From NCBI GenBank assembly GCA_025451315.1, contig JANWKP010000043.1, positions 1 through 37,862 on the forward strand: a DNA stretch of 37,862 nt, in the 5' to 3' direction. Position 1 is the stretch's first letter. Each line of letters opens with the position of its first letter. The stretch is from Nitrososphaerales archaeon (GTDB lineage: Archaea; Thermoproteota; Nitrososphaeria; Nitrososphaerales; Nitrososphaeraceae). A program made the translations under genes and the position numbers. Shown here one piece after another: positions 5,887-33,416 of the stretch. The notes beneath the pieces are model-generated. The model had not been told where the DNA came from. It was given only the letters and a program-made list of their open reading frames with translations, and did not search any database.

Positions 5887-6530
5887 ATCTTTGGATTACG
5901 TTACTATAGAAACATAACATTTTTTTCATTTCGTTTTTTACAACTTAAGAACTTTTTGTTGTTTGTGTCGAAAGCTAAATCTTTAGTTTTAATTAATAGT
6001 AATTCGAGTGCTCCCTTCTCCGTAAAATGCAAAAACTTGATGAGTTGTTATTCTGAGTTAAGAACTATTAAGAAAATAAATATATCCTTTTTATCTATCG
6101 CTTCTATTTTTCTCAATATCTTAATAATATTCTAAAAAGAATTTCCCTAAACTACAGCCAACATCGTGAAATTCTAGAAAATTTTAAGTAACAATATTTT
6201 ACTTGAGTGTAAGTAAATTGAGTCCATTACTCTATATAGAGTGATTGCTTAAATTCTCAATCATCATATTCATCTTTATGTGAATTTGGTAAATATTGGC
6301 TATCAGTTTATCAGTCTTAATATTAATATCCTACTTTATTGACAGAAATTCTTTCAAAATTACTAATTTGATATTTTTCCTACCATTTATTATTCATTCA
6401 TTAGAACTATAAATTTTAAAATGACGTCTTAATATTTACAATGAGCAATTTGAGTGAGGGTTATATTAATAGTATCAGTATTAGATAATTCTTATTTTCT
6501 CTTCTTTATATGACTCCTTTGATAGTAAGC

Positions 6531-26450: not shown

Positions 26451-27389
26451 ATGCCTGGTAAAAATCATTTTTTTGGCAAAGATATAGTTTCAATTAGAGA
26501 TTTTTCTAGAGATGACTTAGAATTCATATTTAATTCAACGGATAATATTCAGCGATTAAAACCTGAAGAAAAAAGTGAACTGGGCAGAGGAAGAACGCTC
26601 GGTTATATTTTCTATGAACCAAGCACTAGAACTAGAATGAGCTTTGAAGCTGCAATGGCATCGCTGGGGGGAAGTTCGATAGGAATTTTTGATTCAAAAT
26701 TTTCTTCTATAGAAAAGGGTGAATCTCTTGCTGACACTATAAGAATAATGGATTTGTATTCTGATGTTATCGTGCTTAGACATGCAAGGGATGGTTCTAG
26801 CAGATATGCAGCAGAGCTTTCGTCTAATCCAATTATCAATGCAGGAAGTGGAAGTGAAGAGCATCCTACACAAGCAATGCTTGATCTGTATACCATTCTT
26901 AAAGAAAAAGGCAAGATAGACAACTTGACAATAGGAATAGTTGGTGATCTAAAATATGGCAGAACTGTATATTCGCTATTGTATGGATTAAAAAATTATC
27001 ATGTAGACGTACATCTAATTTCCCCACCCAGCTTGGCAATAAGAAAAGAATCTATTTTTGAATTTGAAGGGATAATGAACATTAAACACTATGATTATCT
27101 CGATGATATAATTCCCAAACTAGACGTGCTATATGTGACTAGAATACAGAAAGAAAGATTTCCTGATACTCAAGAATACGAAAAGGTAAAAGGCACTTAT
27201 AGAATAGATGATAAAATATTAGAGAATGCTAAAATTGACCTATCAATAATGCATCCTTTACCTAGATTAGATGAAATTTCTCATACTATAGATTATACCA
27301 AGAATGCGATTTATTTTAAACAAGCAGCTTATGGGAAGGCGTTACGTTCTGCTTTATTGGCTTTAATATTGAATGGAGACCCCTTCTAA
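26451..27389 (+). CDS. pyrB: Aspartate carbamoyltransferase catalytic subunit
   Basis: LGYIFYEPSTRTRMSFEAAMASLGGS, VIVLRHARDGSSRYAAE, NAGSGSEEHPTQAMLDLYTI, VGDLKYGRTVYSLLYGL, MHPLPRLDEIS. Confidence 0.96.
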   Translation: MPGKNHFFGKDIVSIRDFSRDDLEFIFNSTDNIQRLKPEEKSELGRGRTLGYIFYEPSTRTRMSFEAAMASLGGSSIGIFDSKFSSIEKGESLADTIRIMDLYSDVIVLRHARDGSSRYAAELSSNPIINAGSGSEEHPTQAMLDLYTILKEKGKIDNLTIGIVGDLKYGRTVYSLLYGLKNYHVDVHLISPPSLAIRKESIFEFEGIMNIKHYDYLDDIIPKLDVLYVTRIQKERFPDTQEYEKVKGTYRIDDKILENAKIDLSIMHPLPRLDEISHTIDYTKNAIYFKQAAYGKALRSALLALILNGDPF

Positions 27390-27518: not shown

Positions 27519-30248
27519 TTACCCTGATACACAGCTACTGAATCCGCATTCTATACACATATTACAACCTTCAGTAATAATGAGTTTGGATTTACATGTT
27601 GGACATATCTCGTCCTCATAGATTTCTGGAAGAGGTTTTTGAATGAATTCTATATGTCCTGTATCTTTAGTCGGCTCTCGTGGGGATACAAGCATCTCGT
27701 TTACAACATAGTCGGTTACTTCAGGATCGGCCGTATTAATTAGCTTAGAAACATACTGAGTTACATATGGTTCTTTTATTTGTGATTGAATATATTCCTT
27801 GACATACTTACTAGGTTTTACTATAAATGATTTTTCTAATGTATTAGTTCCTGTAATATGTAAGACTTGTTCACTTCTTGAACCATCTCGATATACAGTG
27901 ACACCCTTTAATCCCAACTCATGCGCAAGTAGATATGATGATTTAACGTCTTCGACGGTAACATCACCTGGCATGTTAATAGTTTTTGCAATGGCATTAC
28001 TTATCCACCTTTGCCATACTGATTGAGCCATTATATGATCTGTCCAATGAATATCGATTGCTGTTGTAAACAAGGACTGTATCCATAATGGTATCTCATT
28101 TAATCCTCTAACTGATCCGTAATTATTAGCTATCTTAGTTAAAATATCATCGTTGTATAGACCATTCTCCTTTAATACATTTTCAAATATTTTGTTGGTA
28201 TAGAAAAATCTCCCTACAGTAACACGTTTTTCAAACACTAATGCAAAGACTGGTTCTACGCCATTAGAACAATCTGCTATCATTGAGAGAGTTCCAGTAG
28301 GAGCTATAGTAGTGGTCCAAGAATTACGAATTCCGTATTTCTGAATTTTTTCAATTAAAGAATCCCAATCATACGAATGATTTTCTTTTGGTACTTCATA
28401 ATATCCAGCTACGGGAATTTTTTCTGATACATATTCACTTTTTTTGTATAAAGGAAATGAACCTCTTGATTTAGCAATTGCTACGCTTTCTTCCATACTA
28501 TAATAAGTTAATGTTTCAGCAAGTTTATTCATGAACTCGTACCCTTCTTGTGAGGCATAAGGTATACGTAATGAAAATAAAAGATCAGCTATTCCCATGA
28601 TTCCTAAGCCTATTCGTCTTGTAAGTTTGGTATTATAGTCTATTTCATCTACAGGATATTTATTGGCATCTATGATATTATCTAGGAATCTCGAGGAGAT
28701 TCTTATAGCTTGTTCATATCTAGACCAATCAAATTCATACATTCCATCTGCCTTTCGTTTTACAAAATTAGATAAATTAATGGATCCAAGATTACATGAT
28801 TCATATGGATATAATGATTGTTCTCCACAAGGATTAGTAGCTCTGAGAGGTCCTTCTTTAGCTTTAATACAGGGATTGTACTTGTTTATGTTATCGAAGA
28901 AGATAATACCAGGTTCTGCGCTTTTCCATGCACTTAATGATATAAGATCTATGAGTTGATGGGAATCAATCTGTTTAAGAGGTTCATGAGTTCTAGGATT
29001 TCTGAGAGTATACTTGTTGTTATTATTAATAAGAGCCTTCCAAAAATCATCCCATAATCCAACACTTACATTAAAATTTTCAAAAACACCAGGCTTTGTT
29101 TTTGCAGTGATAAATTTTTCAATATCTGGATGCCAGACTTCAAGAATCCCCATATTAGCTCCACGTCTTTTTCCTCCTTGTTTAACGACATCTGTAATCG
29201 TATCTATAATTCGCATAAAAGACGCAGGACCAGAAGCAACTCCTGAAGTAGATGCCACAATATCACCTTCTGGTCTCAAATCAGAATAATTAATTCCCAC
29301 ACCGCCTCCAGATTTAAAAATCATAGCTGCATCTGATGATGTTTTCATGATTTTTTCCATGTCATCAGGCATATCCAAAACAAAACATGCAGAGAGTTGT
29401 CCTAAACGGGCGCCTGCATTCATTAAAGTAGGAGTATTTGGAAGAAAATCTTTAGATACCATTAACCCATAATATTCTTTAATTCGGTCTTCATAAGAGG
29501 TAAACTTTCCTTTAAATATTAGTTTTAAAAGATCTTTAAAAGACGTCTTCATTTGTCCTTTTGAAGCTAACTGAGTGTATAATCGAATGAGCGATTCAAA
29601 ATGATATTTATTCAAGTAATAAGACCCTATCTTTAGTTTAAGGTCAAAGTCACTTATTTTATCATAATATGCAGTAGCTTCTGTAGTATTTTGATCGTAT
29701 CCACCTGGTAGGTGAAATATATGTGGATCGTGTAACAAATCAGAAATGGCAACAAGAATAGCTACACGCTCAAACATCTGTTTAGGTGCTTCAATTATTT
29801 CATTACTGTCATTTCTTAAAAGATAACGTGAAGATAAGACGCGAAGAGAATTTATATCAAAATCCTTATCAACTTCATCAAGGTTTTTCTTATTTAAAAT
29901 TTTTATTTTGTCTTCTCTGATTTTTCTTCTTTCGTGTCTATAAAGAATATAAGCTTTGGCAGTATCAGATAATCCATCTTCAATAAGAATAGACTCAACA
30001 ATATCTTGAACATCTTCAACGCTTGGTATGAAAGATTTATCAAATGAAGTACTATTAAAGGTCATTTTTTTAACGACTTTATTAACAAGTTCTTCTGCTA
30101 ATTGAAAATTAGGTTTTCCTGTTGCAATCAAAGCTTTATAAATTGCCTGTGATATCTTTGATTCATCAAAATTTACTACTCTACCATCTCGTTTCTTTAT
30201 TTTAAACACTGATTTATTTTTAGTTTTGTCTATTTCTGATAGTCCCAT
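27519..30248 (-). CDS. nrdJ: Adenosylcobalamin-dependent (class II) ribonucleoside-diphosphate reductase
   Basis: N-terminal ATP-cone (FKIKKRDGRVVNFDESKISQAIYKAL), DFLPNTPTLMNAGARLGQLSACFVLDMPDDM, GGVGINYSDLRPEG, ATNPCGEQSLYPYESCNLGSINL, TGTLSMIADCSNGVEPVFALVFEKRV, C-terminal CPTCKSKL..CNMCIECGFSSC. Confidence 0.95.
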   Translation of the reverse strand: MGLSEIDKTKNKSVFKIKKRDGRVVNFDESKISQAIYKALIATGKPNFQLAEELVNKVVKKMTFNSTSFDKSFIPSVEDVQDIVESILIEDGLSDTAKAYILYRHERRKIREDKIKILNKKNLDEVDKDFDINSLRVLSSRYLLRNDSNEIIEAPKQMFERVAILVAISDLLHDPHIFHLPGGYDQNTTEATAYYDKISDFDLKLKIGSYYLNKYHFESLIRLYTQLASKGQMKTSFKDLLKLIFKGKFTSYEDRIKEYYGLMVSKDFLPNTPTLMNAGARLGQLSACFVLDMPDDMEKIMKTSSDAAMIFKSGGGVGINYSDLRPEGDIVASTSGVASGPASFMRIIDTITDVVKQGGKRRGANMGILEVWHPDIEKFITAKTKPGVFENFNVSVGLWDDFWKALINNNNKYTLRNPRTHEPLKQIDSHQLIDLISLSAWKSAEPGIIFFDNINKYNPCIKAKEGPLRATNPCGEQSLYPYESCNLGSINLSNFVKRKADGMYEFDWSRYEQAIRISSRFLDNIIDANKYPVDEIDYNTKLTRRIGLGIMGIADLLFSLRIPYASQEGYEFMNKLAETLTYYSMEESVAIAKSRGSFPLYKKSEYVSEKIPVAGYYEVPKENHSYDWDSLIEKIQKYGIRNSWTTTIAPTGTLSMIADCSNGVEPVFALVFEKRVTVGRFFYTNKIFENVLKENGLYNDDILTKIANNYGSVRGLNEIPLWIQSLFTTAIDIHWTDHIMAQSVWQRWISNAIAKTINMPGDVTVEDVKSSYLLAHELGLKGVTVYRDGSRSEQVLHITGTNTLEKSFIVKPSKYVKEYIQSQIKEPYVTQYVSKLINTADPEVTDYVVNEMLVSPREPTKDTGHIEFIQKPLPEIYEDEICPTCKSKLIITEGCNMCIECGFSSCVSG

Positions 30249-30458
30249 ACAATTTCGCCGTCCAAATTCAAGATATATCTTAGATAATATAACACTTAAA
30301 TTTTATTATTATACAACATAATTAGCTAAAAATTATATTATTAAATAATCTTATTTGATCTCTTGCAGCCTTCCAGAATGGACAGGATAGTATAAAAAAT
30401 TAGAGTTGTTGCTATTATTAATATAACGTGACTAAGTTCAAGGCAAAATAAGCCAAAA

Positions 30459-32615
30459 CTATGTAGAGATTGAGGAAATTTTACAAGACTCACATTTCTC
30501 ACAAATTTTTAAATCAGCGATAAAAAAACGTTCTCCACAAATATTACATATCGAGAAATTTTGAGCAAGATAAAAAAACGGAAGATTTGCAAAAGATTTA
30601 AGGATCTTTTTTACATCTCCAATGTCACTAATATTAGTAATATCCAGATCAATAGAAACTCCTCCTTTAAGAAGACCCTCGAGAGATGAATAATATTCTA
30701 TTATTGGATCCAAATCGATAGAATTTGAAATAATTTTTTCGCCATCAATAATTAATCCTTGTGAATAAATCAAATTTTCGCCATTATTAATCGTTAATGA
30801 TTTTCCATATTTCTCAATATCCAAATCTTTGAATCTAAAAGCACTATCGTCTTTTAGCATTGTTATCCTTATTTCAGCATTTTCTTGATTTTCTTTGTTC
30901 TTCTCATTGATTATATCAATAGCAGTTTGAATGACCTTTTTTATCACGTTATCACCGTTTTTTTCTGGAGTATATCCTAAAATTTCGTATACAGATTCCT
31001 GGATGCCCACTAAATTAACCATAGCCTCAATTTTACCCAATTTCAAGTTTGATGTAGTTTGACTAATTATAGGAATTGTTCCCTTTTGAATAAGATCCGA
31101 TACAGAGAGAAAACGCTGTGTAATTATTGAAAGCAATGGTTTCAATAATATTGCTAGTCTCGCCCTAAAGTATGTTTCGTCTTTATTTGATTGATATGCT
31201 ATTCTTGGAAGATTAATTGATAATGATTGTAACATCACAACTGTACTTGTATTTGGCATTTCTTCAGATTTAGATAAACCATATCTTGCACGAACTTTAT
31301 GTTTTGAAAATGATATTATACCTCCAACTTTGGAAAGTCGTAAAAGTTTATCAATAAAAGGATCAAGAGAAGTAAGATCATCATAAACAATTGAGAGAGC
31401 AATTGTTGGAATCGGTGTAATAGTTATATATTTTTCATATCCTTCTAGTAATGAATTTACTATCAGAGCATCATACTTACTCAAATTAATAGATATTGTA
31501 ATATTTGGAGAAAAAGAACCATATGAAGAGATTGTAGAAGTTAAAAAGAAAATGTTTGCTATATTATCCTTTCCAACTTGACCTATTTCGCTTTTCTTTT
31601 GAAGAAAATCTAAAAATCCTTCAACAACAATTTCTCTTGAGGCTTCTCTGCTTAATAAAGAAAAGATAAGTGGTATAACTGATTCTGGTGTTTGCAAGGT
31701 ATTAGATCGGAGAATTCTAGATACGCTTAGATATCGTCCCTTTATATCTTCAAAAATATCAATTATAGAATTAATATTAATAAACATAGCATCTGGAATA
31801 ATATTCCAGAATCCACTTTTACCTATATTGATCTCTCCAGTCAAGTGCATATCAACAATATCCTTTGGAAGAGAACTGTTCAAAAGATATTCTGTAAAAA
31901 TTGATTGTGAAGTTTTAACAACAAGATCAGGAATTTCCATATTACGAGTACTAGTTTCATGAATAAGAGACACCATATCAGATGGAGGAAGTCCTAACCT
32001 AGCAAGCTTATTTCTATAATCGTCATGACCATGCTCAATTAGTATTGAATTGGTCATTTCCCTTATTAGAGAAGACGTAAGATAAGATGTTTGAAGTTTA
32101 TAAATTTTATTTTCAACCTCTTCTGTAATTTTATGTGCAAGTTCTAATGGCATGTTAGCTTCTCTTACTAAAGATTGAATTATCTTATTAGAGTCGAATT
32201 CTTCAATTGAAGGTTTTGTAGTCCTCACGTATAATTTACCACTTTCTATAATTGATCTTTCTTCAATTTGACGTGCTAAACTTAATACTAATTTACCTAG
32301 GTTAGTAATTGTATATCGTCTTTCTGCTTTATTGAGAGAGACCAAGGATTGACGTAGTAATTTTCTTAAATGATATGCAAATTTGCCTGATTCTTTTTTG
32401 GATTTAAACCCTGCAAGAGACTTTAATTCAGAATAAGTCAAAGGACCTTTAGAATAAAGAATTCTAAGTATATCAATACGATTTGGGCTAGCCATAACAG
32501 AAAATATCATTCTCACCCTTCGCGAGGCGGATTCCAGAATACTGCCATGTTTGGATCCTGTCTTATTAACTATTTGTGATTGTACTCGCTCCATTGCACC
32601 GGTTATGAATAACAA
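30459..32615 (-). CDS. ArsR-like HTH + ATP-cone + NrdD-like (putatively non-catalytic) protein with C-terminal Zn ribbon
   Basis: HTH: VMASPNRIDILRILYSKGPLTYSELKSLAGFKSKKESGKFAYHLRKLLRQSLV. ATP-cone: VRTTKPSIEEFDSNKIIQSLVREANMPLELAHKITEEVENKI. C-terminus CNICGERFFIADLKICEKCESCKISSIST ends without a glycyl-radical RVxGY-type tail. Confidence 0.75.
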   Translation of the reverse strand: MLFITGAMERVQSQIVNKTGSKHGSILESASRRVRMIFSVMASPNRIDILRILYSKGPLTYSELKSLAGFKSKKESGKFAYHLRKLLRQSLVSLNKAERRYTITNLGKLVLSLARQIEERSIIESGKLYVRTTKPSIEEFDSNKIIQSLVREANMPLELAHKITEEVENKIYKLQTSYLTSSLIREMTNSILIEHGHDDYRNKLARLGLPPSDMVSLIHETSTRNMEIPDLVVKTSQSIFTEYLLNSSLPKDIVDMHLTGEINIGKSGFWNIIPDAMFININSIIDIFEDIKGRYLSVSRILRSNTLQTPESVIPLIFSLLSREASREIVVEGFLDFLQKKSEIGQVGKDNIANIFFLTSTISSYGSFSPNITISINLSKYDALIVNSLLEGYEKYITITPIPTIALSIVYDDLTSLDPFIDKLLRLSKVGGIISFSKHKVRARYGLSKSEEMPNTSTVVMLQSLSINLPRIAYQSNKDETYFRARLAILLKPLLSIITQRFLSVSDLIQKGTIPIISQTTSNLKLGKIEAMVNLVGIQESVYEILGYTPEKNGDNVIKKVIQTAIDIINEKNKENQENAEIRITMLKDDSAFRFKDLDIEKYGKSLTINNGENLIYSQGLIIDGEKIISNSIDLDPIIEYYSSLEGLLKGGVSIDLDITNISDIGDVKKILKSFANLPFFYLAQNFSICNICGERFFIADLKICEKCESCKISSIST

Positions 32616-32686
32616 GTAATTAAAGCTACTTTGTAAAGTTTTTTATACAATTAATGTAATGGATACTAATCAGGATACTCTTTAAA

Positions 32687-33304
32687 CTAAGCTTCCAATA
32701 ATACTCTGGAATTTTTAGTTGAGATTTCATTTTGCTTGGAAATATGCTGAATATTTTTACTAATGTTAATAGGAATAGCGGGAATCTTCGACCTTGTTTC
32801 TTCTTCCATGATAGTATGTACTTCATTAAGAATTTCTAGTGCATCAGAATTAACAGGAATAGAGATATGATCTACATTTACATTCACATTTGACTGTATC
32901 AAAATTTCTGATGATAATGTTGTCATTTCGGAAATTATACTAGCAGCGGCAGGAATGGTTCTAGTTATATCATTCTTCACTTCCTTAACTGTTTCGATCA
33001 TTGGATTAATAGTGTCAAGAATCTCAGCAAATTCAGATATTGTAGAAAATCTTATTACTATTATTTCTAAACTCATTAATAGTTTCTGGGTAGTACGTTT
33101 AATTTTTCTAATATTCACTAATTCGTTTGCTAATGCTTTTGCACGTACTTTATCCCCATTTTTTATATTTATAATTACCTTGTTACGCAACTCTTTATCT
33201 AGATTATTAAATCGGTTATTCATTATCCTCAGCTTTGCTAGTTGATTGTTAACAACGGTACTTGCATTAGAGAGCTTTGTTTTTATCTGAGGATACTTTT
33301 CCAT
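32687..33304 (-). CDS. CdvB/ESCRT-III (Snf7-family)-like protein
   Basis: Helical, basic N-terminal region (LSNASTVVNNQLAKLRIMNNRFNNLDKELRNKVIINIKNGDKVRAKALANELVNIRKIKRTTQKLLMSLEII) and a downstream proline-containing motif (SKIPAIPIN). Start at internal Met MEKYPQIK preferred over 33370. Confidence 0.75.
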   Translation of the reverse strand: MEKYPQIKTKLSNASTVVNNQLAKLRIMNNRFNNLDKELRNKVIINIKNGDKVRAKALANELVNIRKIKRTTQKLLMSLEIIVIRFSTISEFAEILDTINPMIETVKEVKNDITRTIPAAASIISEMTTLSSEILIQSNVNVNVDHISIPVNSDALEILNEVHTIMEEETRSKIPAIPINISKNIQHISKQNEISTKNSRVLLEA

Positions 33305-33416
33305 AAGTTTGTTAATATGGTAATAGAATGTTAAGGTTATAGTTAAGTGAACTAGACAAATTGATTTCATTAAATTTAGTTATTTTGTTTCAAATAATGA
33401 TAAGTAAATAAAATGA

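Follow-up and report, generated by a model that had tools for sequence, protein, structure and literature searches.

A dead class III ribonucleotide reductase joined to a putative DNA-binding domain in ammonia-oxidising archaea: a candidate analogue of NrdR

NrdR is rare in archaea (PMC9110341), so that the way in which expression of archaeal ribonucleotide reductase (RNR) genes is set is largely an open question. This question is raised by the window analysed here, a stretch of 37,862 nucleotides from a Nitrososphaerales archaeon, in which a gene of unusual composition precedes the RNR gene nrdJ. A preliminary description of the locus had taken its product for a repurposed, non-catalytic RNR fused to a DNA-binding domain and acting as an archaeal counterpart of NrdR. 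The gene, here called the pseudo-NrdD gene, and its parts are as follows (evidence in brackets):

30459..32615, minus strand: pseudo-NrdD gene, putative regulator; TTG 32615 in the list of open reading frames, with ATG 32594 as the likelier start (domains, family, structure)
32240..32519, minus strand: winged helix-turn-helix (HTH), residues 33-125 (Pfam, helices and wing of the model, identity within ammonia-oxidising archaea)
31980..32240, minus strand: ATP-cone, residues 126-212, with a VRTS-type variant of the KRxG loop (Pfam; 60/60 homologues)
30576..31970, minus strand: degenerate NrdD barrel, residues 216-680, without thiyl Cys, first-strand Cys and NxN flap (Pfam, alignment, structure, motif counts)
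30462..30548, minus strand: C-terminal zinc ribbon C690/C693/C705/C708; the protein stops before the RVxGY glycyl-radical loop (alignment, motif count)

The open reading frame encodes 718 amino acids, or 711 if translation starts at ATG 32594 (residue 8). The latter is probably the true start rather than TTG 32615, because homologues begin with MEQ or MER aligned with residue 8. In Pfam searches the N-terminal region matched DUF7347 (an HTH family, PF24038; residues 37-111, E=3.4e-10, 40.5 bits with a gathering score of 27.6) and HTH_20 (E=2.5e-6). The ATP-cone behind it was found at residues 129-200 (PF03477, E=4.6e-10), and NRDD was matched at residues 455-711 (E=3e-15). HTH, ATP-cone and NRDD matches each exceeded the curated cut-off, and the same three-domain set was present in 60/60 homologues scanned. 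The N-terminus had been called ArsR-like; a winged HTH is present, while the family profile NF033788 stayed at 23 bits, short of its cut-off of 55. The nearest homologues of the 718-residue protein are named Nitrososphaeraceae, and the gene is the sole NRDD match in the source genome.

Structure prediction was compared with solved proteins, as the preliminary description had proposed for its presumed remnant of an NrdD-type barrel. A first AlphaFold model, built from 26 sequences, had a mean pLDDT of 75 and a poorly resolved HTH. A second, built from an alignment of 60 homologues, reached a mean pLDDT of 85.3, with about 90 in the HTH. The HTH is modelled as a helical core (helices 25-41, 44-56, 61-68 and 73-88) with a two-strand wing (92-95 and 100-103), after which a long helix leads to the ATP-cone. 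Solved NrdD structures were the first matches of both models (4coj_B, E=3.6e-15, for the first; 4col_B, E=9.5e-17, TM 0.53/0.63, for the second), which together with the NRDD match bears out the remnant barrel. All Foldseek matches at E<=0.001 were RNRs, class III on top, except for one, another glycyl radical enzyme.

Loss of catalysis was assessed against catalytic archaeal NrdDs from the same phylum (22 for motif counts), with the following results: (i) the glycyl-radical loop, before which the protein had been said to end, was found in 0/128 homologues and 22/22 catalytic NrdDs; (ii) the thiyl-radical CC was likewise found in 0/128 and 22/22, a single regex match inside a zinc ribbon being set aside; in the alignment the Cys pair QCC reads xxG in the family, and none of 29 aligned homologues has CC at the two thiyl-radical columns; (iii) the first-strand Cys is missing from the HTH-bearing family in the same alignment; (iv) the NxN substrate flap (described in PMC11226230), which reads ENAN or ENSN in catalytic NrdDs, is missing from both the window protein and its aligned homologues; a motif scan for it was less clean, with three stray regex matches in 128 homologues and 17/22 catalytic controls. 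All catalytic elements examined are thus lost, as the description of a non-catalytic RNR implied. The four Cys (CxxC...CxxC) of the zinc ribbon, a feature also noted there, are retained in 127/128 homologues. In one Nitrosopumilaceae copy (L100, 6818-8896) the frame stops before the ribbon, by frameshift or true loss.

An active class III RNR that merely carries an extra DNA-binding domain would explain the NRDD profile match. It would have to work although all 128 homologues have lost the glycyl-radical loop and thiyl Cys, and those in the aligned set have lost the remaining catalytic elements too; we consider it extremely unlikely, and the sequence effectively refutes it. The window protein scores 51 bits against the NrdD equivalog profile, whose cut-off is 326. 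The NrdG activase profile gave only sub-cut-off matches in the source genome; it is not decisive in archaea, because genomes with an intact archaeal NrdD likewise stay below the cut-off.

In a tree of 51 proteins all catalytic NrdDs grouped in a single clan (100% bootstrap) that excluded the HTH-bearing family; the copies of ammonia-oxidising archaea (AOA) formed one group (100%) nested among the remaining HTH-bearing copies. A profile search of phylum genomes gave matches in 271/398, some of them weak, which may include plain NrdD or HTH proteins. Among the matching genomes are 74/74 of those sampled from the window's order. In IMG/VR three NrdD/ATP-cone fragments were the only viral matches, and the full architecture was not found. 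Mean identity within AOA (30 copies) is 92% for the HTH, 74% for the ATP-cone and 39% for the barrel, and that of the neighbouring nrdJ is 70% (20 loci). The strongest constraint thus falls on the HTH, as expected of a part that contacts DNA. For most relatives outside AOA the NRDD match has an E-value of about 1e-53 to 1e-95; for AOA it is about 1e-15 to 1e-23 or weaker. This fall suggests relaxed constraint on the AOA barrel, and the copies appear to form a graded series, with moderate degeneration in relatives and strong decay of the barrel in AOA.

The quick divergence of the barrel and the drop in profile scores in AOA are also what a decaying pseudogene or an assembly artefact might show. 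An open frame of about 680-780 amino acids is, however, kept across roughly 130 genomes, with a near-invariant HTH and universal presence in the order. The architecture therefore represents a conserved family, neither chance nor a decaying pseudogene; we give the latter explanation practically no credence, conservation having effectively refuted it. By sequence comparison, AOA and many of their relatives possess a dead NrdD copy joined to a putative DNA-binding domain.

In the family the phosphate motif of the ATP-cone is VRTS, and VRTT in the window copy, in place of the classical KRxG. Since the same variant occurs in two catalytically intact NrdDs (L088 and L092), nucleotide binding by the variant cone is plausible.

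The link to RNR genes was judged from the gene neighbourhood:

27519..30248, minus strand: nrdJ, coding for a class II (B12-dependent) RNR that carries an ATP-cone of its own and is presumed to be the target or a partner (open reading frame, profiles, synteny)

As had been described, nrdJ follows the pseudo-NrdD gene on the same strand and has its own ATP-cone; the distance is 210 bp, and the cone is matched at E=1.9e-20. The order thiolase, OB protein, (CdvB-like protein in Nitrososphaeraceae), pseudo-NrdD and nrdJ is conserved in AOA. With the window excluded, nrdJ comes next in 51/52 AOA loci that have enough downstream sequence. The sole exception belongs to an AOA clade without nrdJ inside 1.5 kb (L026, downstream of 3447). 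The CdvB1/B2-like (ESCRT-III cell-division) gene lies at 32687-33370 (minus strand), directly upstream of the pseudo-NrdD gene and on the same strand in Nitrososphaeraceae. Its NCBIfam match (E=4e-19) is below the cut-off, and no such gene was found at the corresponding place in Nitrosopumilaceae loci. In one locus (L013, 8180-12001) a stretch of about 1 kb, possibly an intein or insertion, breaks up nrdJ near residues 459-474; long open reading frames in G332 (1276 amino acids) and G043 (1009 amino acids) may resemble it.

Outside AOA an RNR gene follows directly on the same strand in 10/74 loci (nine intact nrdD, one nrdJ). The other 64/74 copies adjoin no RNR gene, which makes the linkage argument uneven. 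Usually a convergent carbamoyltransferase gene comes next instead; in the window an aspartate/ornithine carbamoyltransferase gene (26451-27389, plus strand) is convergent with nrdJ. Its position directly after the pseudo-NrdD gene in many relatives suggests that the slot between them has either lost or acquired an RNR gene. A survey of nrdJ neighbourhoods, proposed in the preliminary description, thus upheld the linkage within AOA and failed to extend it to most other copies. Over all loci the downstream slot holds five RNR families. Two of them are NrdD families with 40-44% mutual identity; the remaining three are NrdJ families (those of AOA, L073 and L095; 30-44% identical), and the NrdJs of L073 and L095 have no ATP-cone. 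That different RNRs have filled this slot repeatedly is the strongest evidence for a functional connection.

These neighbourhoods bear on two further explanations. The protein might be a DNA-binding regulator chiefly of other genes, placed beside RNR genes by inherited gene order. The many non-AOA copies without an RNR neighbour fit this, as do the lack of a motif common with nrdJ (see below) and the likewise conserved carbamoyltransferase gene, which would make the region simply syntenic. Five RNR families in one slot are hard to obtain by inheritance alone, however, and the predicted sensor parts are RNR parts; we regard this explanation as rather unlikely. Alternatively, the protein might be a non-catalytic RNR partner that attaches to NrdJ or NrdD and modulates the enzyme via a second ATP-cone, the HTH serving protein contacts or autoregulation only. 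An RNR large-subunit fold with an ATP-cone, the stable pairing with nrdJ in AOA and the two partner NrdJs devoid of a cone would suit such a role. It is distinctly improbable given that the best-conserved part is the HTH (92%), which points to DNA contacts, that AOA NrdJ already has an ATP-cone, and that the partners change class, which makes a conserved interface unlikely.

Regulation of the gene itself was approached through its promoter:

32617..32637, minus strand: promoter-proximal element TTTACAAAGTAGCTTTAATTA, 22 nt upstream of the ATG, a candidate operator for autoregulation or else a core promoter (conservation, genome search)

In 19 Nitrososphaera-type genomes the 20-bp block TTTACAAAGTAGTTTTAATC of this promoter, whose end lies some 20 nt ahead of the ATG, shows 0.58 mismatches per 20 bp, as compared with 3.8 to 4.9 for the other genes of the locus. 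The element TTTACAAAGTAGCTTTAATTA has one copy in the source genome. In four genomes searched the 20-bp element was present at the pseudo-NrdD gene; elsewhere there were two matches with three mismatches, both in one genome and at control level. Given that it lies where an archaeal core promoter would be expected, it may be either an operator overlapping the promoter or just a promoter of unusual sequence. The sequences at this position are different in Nitrosocosmicus and Nitrosopumilaceae, and the latter conserve the thiolase promoter better than that of the pseudo-NrdD gene.

No operator common to the pseudo-NrdD gene and nrdJ stood out clearly from shuffled controls; the only signal was an AT-rich word in Nitrosocosmicus, and it was weak. 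A search with one approximate NrdR-box consensus gave no match near 30249-32640 and a single three-mismatch match at 6229, which is at chance level.

NrdR itself (TIGR00244) was found above the cut-off in 35/397 genomes, nearly all of one family (f5). It was absent from the AOA genomes in this search, and the source genome gave no match at E<=0.001. Members of that family, and also G305, have NrdR directly preceding a different nrdD, which makes an archaeal nrdR-nrdD pair (G190 C11, G184 C1, G328 C2, G305 C20). G305 has both arrangements, with NrdR beside one nrdD and pseudo-NrdD beside another.

Pseudo-NrdD resembles NrdR in coupling an ATP-cone to a putative DNA-binding domain, in lying beside or upstream of RNR genes and in being possibly autoregulated. 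NrdR is, however, a protein of about 150 amino acids with an N-terminal DNA-binding zinc ribbon and an RRRR motif, whereas pseudo-NrdD consists of a winged HTH, a cone and then a full dead RNR barrel; its zinc ribbon is C-terminal, and its N-terminus is a winged HTH instead of an NrdR-type ribbon. With NrdD (class III anaerobic RNR; PF13597, TIGR02487) it shares the barrel fold, N-terminal ATP-cone and C-terminal zinc ribbon; it differs in the lost catalytic elements described above and in the added HTH. By these sequence features it is a member neither of NrdR, whose defining features it lacks, nor of functional NrdD. ArsR/SmtB-type winged HTHs and DUF7347 are similar in HTH fold and in sequence across residues 37-111; pseudo-NrdD differs in that its HTH is fused to a predicted RNR-derived sensor. 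WhiA, a transcription regulator related to homing endonucleases (PMC3781837), would offer a parallel in the reuse of an enzyme fold in a regulator, a role that is predicted here; fold and lineage are different. ATP-cone regulators such as NrdR and enzyme-derived regulators are thus already known kinds. A keyword search of the literature, with most subscription journals outside its coverage, yielded no report of a regulator built from a complete RNR, and the terms looked for on HTH, DNA-binding or transcription do not occur in two full surveys of the RNR family (PMC9669993, PMC9531940).

Taken together, we consider it probable that pseudo-NrdD is a transcription regulator of RNR and dNTP supply, analogous to NrdR and not homologous to it as a whole; by analogy it may work like NrdR. 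In favour of this reading are the architecture in 60/60 homologues, the NrdD fold with its catalytic motifs lost, the separate NrdD clan, the conservation of the HTH, the presence in 74/74 genomes, the 51/52 loci with nrdJ, the five RNR families in the slot (two of the NrdJs having no ATP-cone), the absence of NrdR in AOA, the highly conserved promoter element of the gene, which is close to single-copy, and the arrangement in f5, where NrdR occupies the corresponding position beside a different nrdD. Against it are the failure to find an operator common with nrdJ, the 64/74 non-AOA loci with no adjoining RNR gene, the AOA locus L026 without nrdJ, the ATP-cone with no canonical KRxG, and a promoter element that is possibly ordinary core promoter. 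The proposed archaeal counterpart of NrdR is thus partly supported: the NrdD fold, lost catalysis, HTH fusion, linkage to RNR genes in AOA and lack of NrdR there hold, ATP/dATP binding and regulation of nrdJ are predictions, and the linkage is uneven outside AOA.

The ancestor would have been a class III RNR (NrdD) that gained an N-terminal winged HTH, kept ATP-cone, barrel fold and zinc ribbon, and lost catalysis, as the sequence and fold comparisons indicate. The HTH would bind DNA. Adenine nucleotides would most likely be sensed through the ATP-cone, and dNTPs perhaps in the old specificity or active-site pocket, with a switch in oligomeric state as in RNRs and NrdR. Binding at its own promoter would then adjust expression of the gene itself and, in part through co-transcription, of the RNR gene next to it. 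All of these activities, from DNA binding and nucleotide sensing to autoregulation and RNR control, are inferred, and the whole looks like a sensor adjusting DNA precursor supply. Whether this is a new family of regulators made from a whole dead RNR, ancient in the phylum, that reads nucleotide levels via RNR-derived sensor parts and sets RNR expression whatever the RNR class, we judge to be evenly balanced.

Ammonia-oxidising archaea are very abundant in ocean and soil. If true, the proposal would supply the missing archaeal counterpart of NrdR, and it may link dNTP supply to replication in these organisms. As a universal, single-copy candidate in AOA, pseudo-NrdD brings the question of archaeal RNR expression within direct experimental reach. 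It would also show clearly how an enzyme can become a transcription factor and still retain the enzyme's allosteric sensor.
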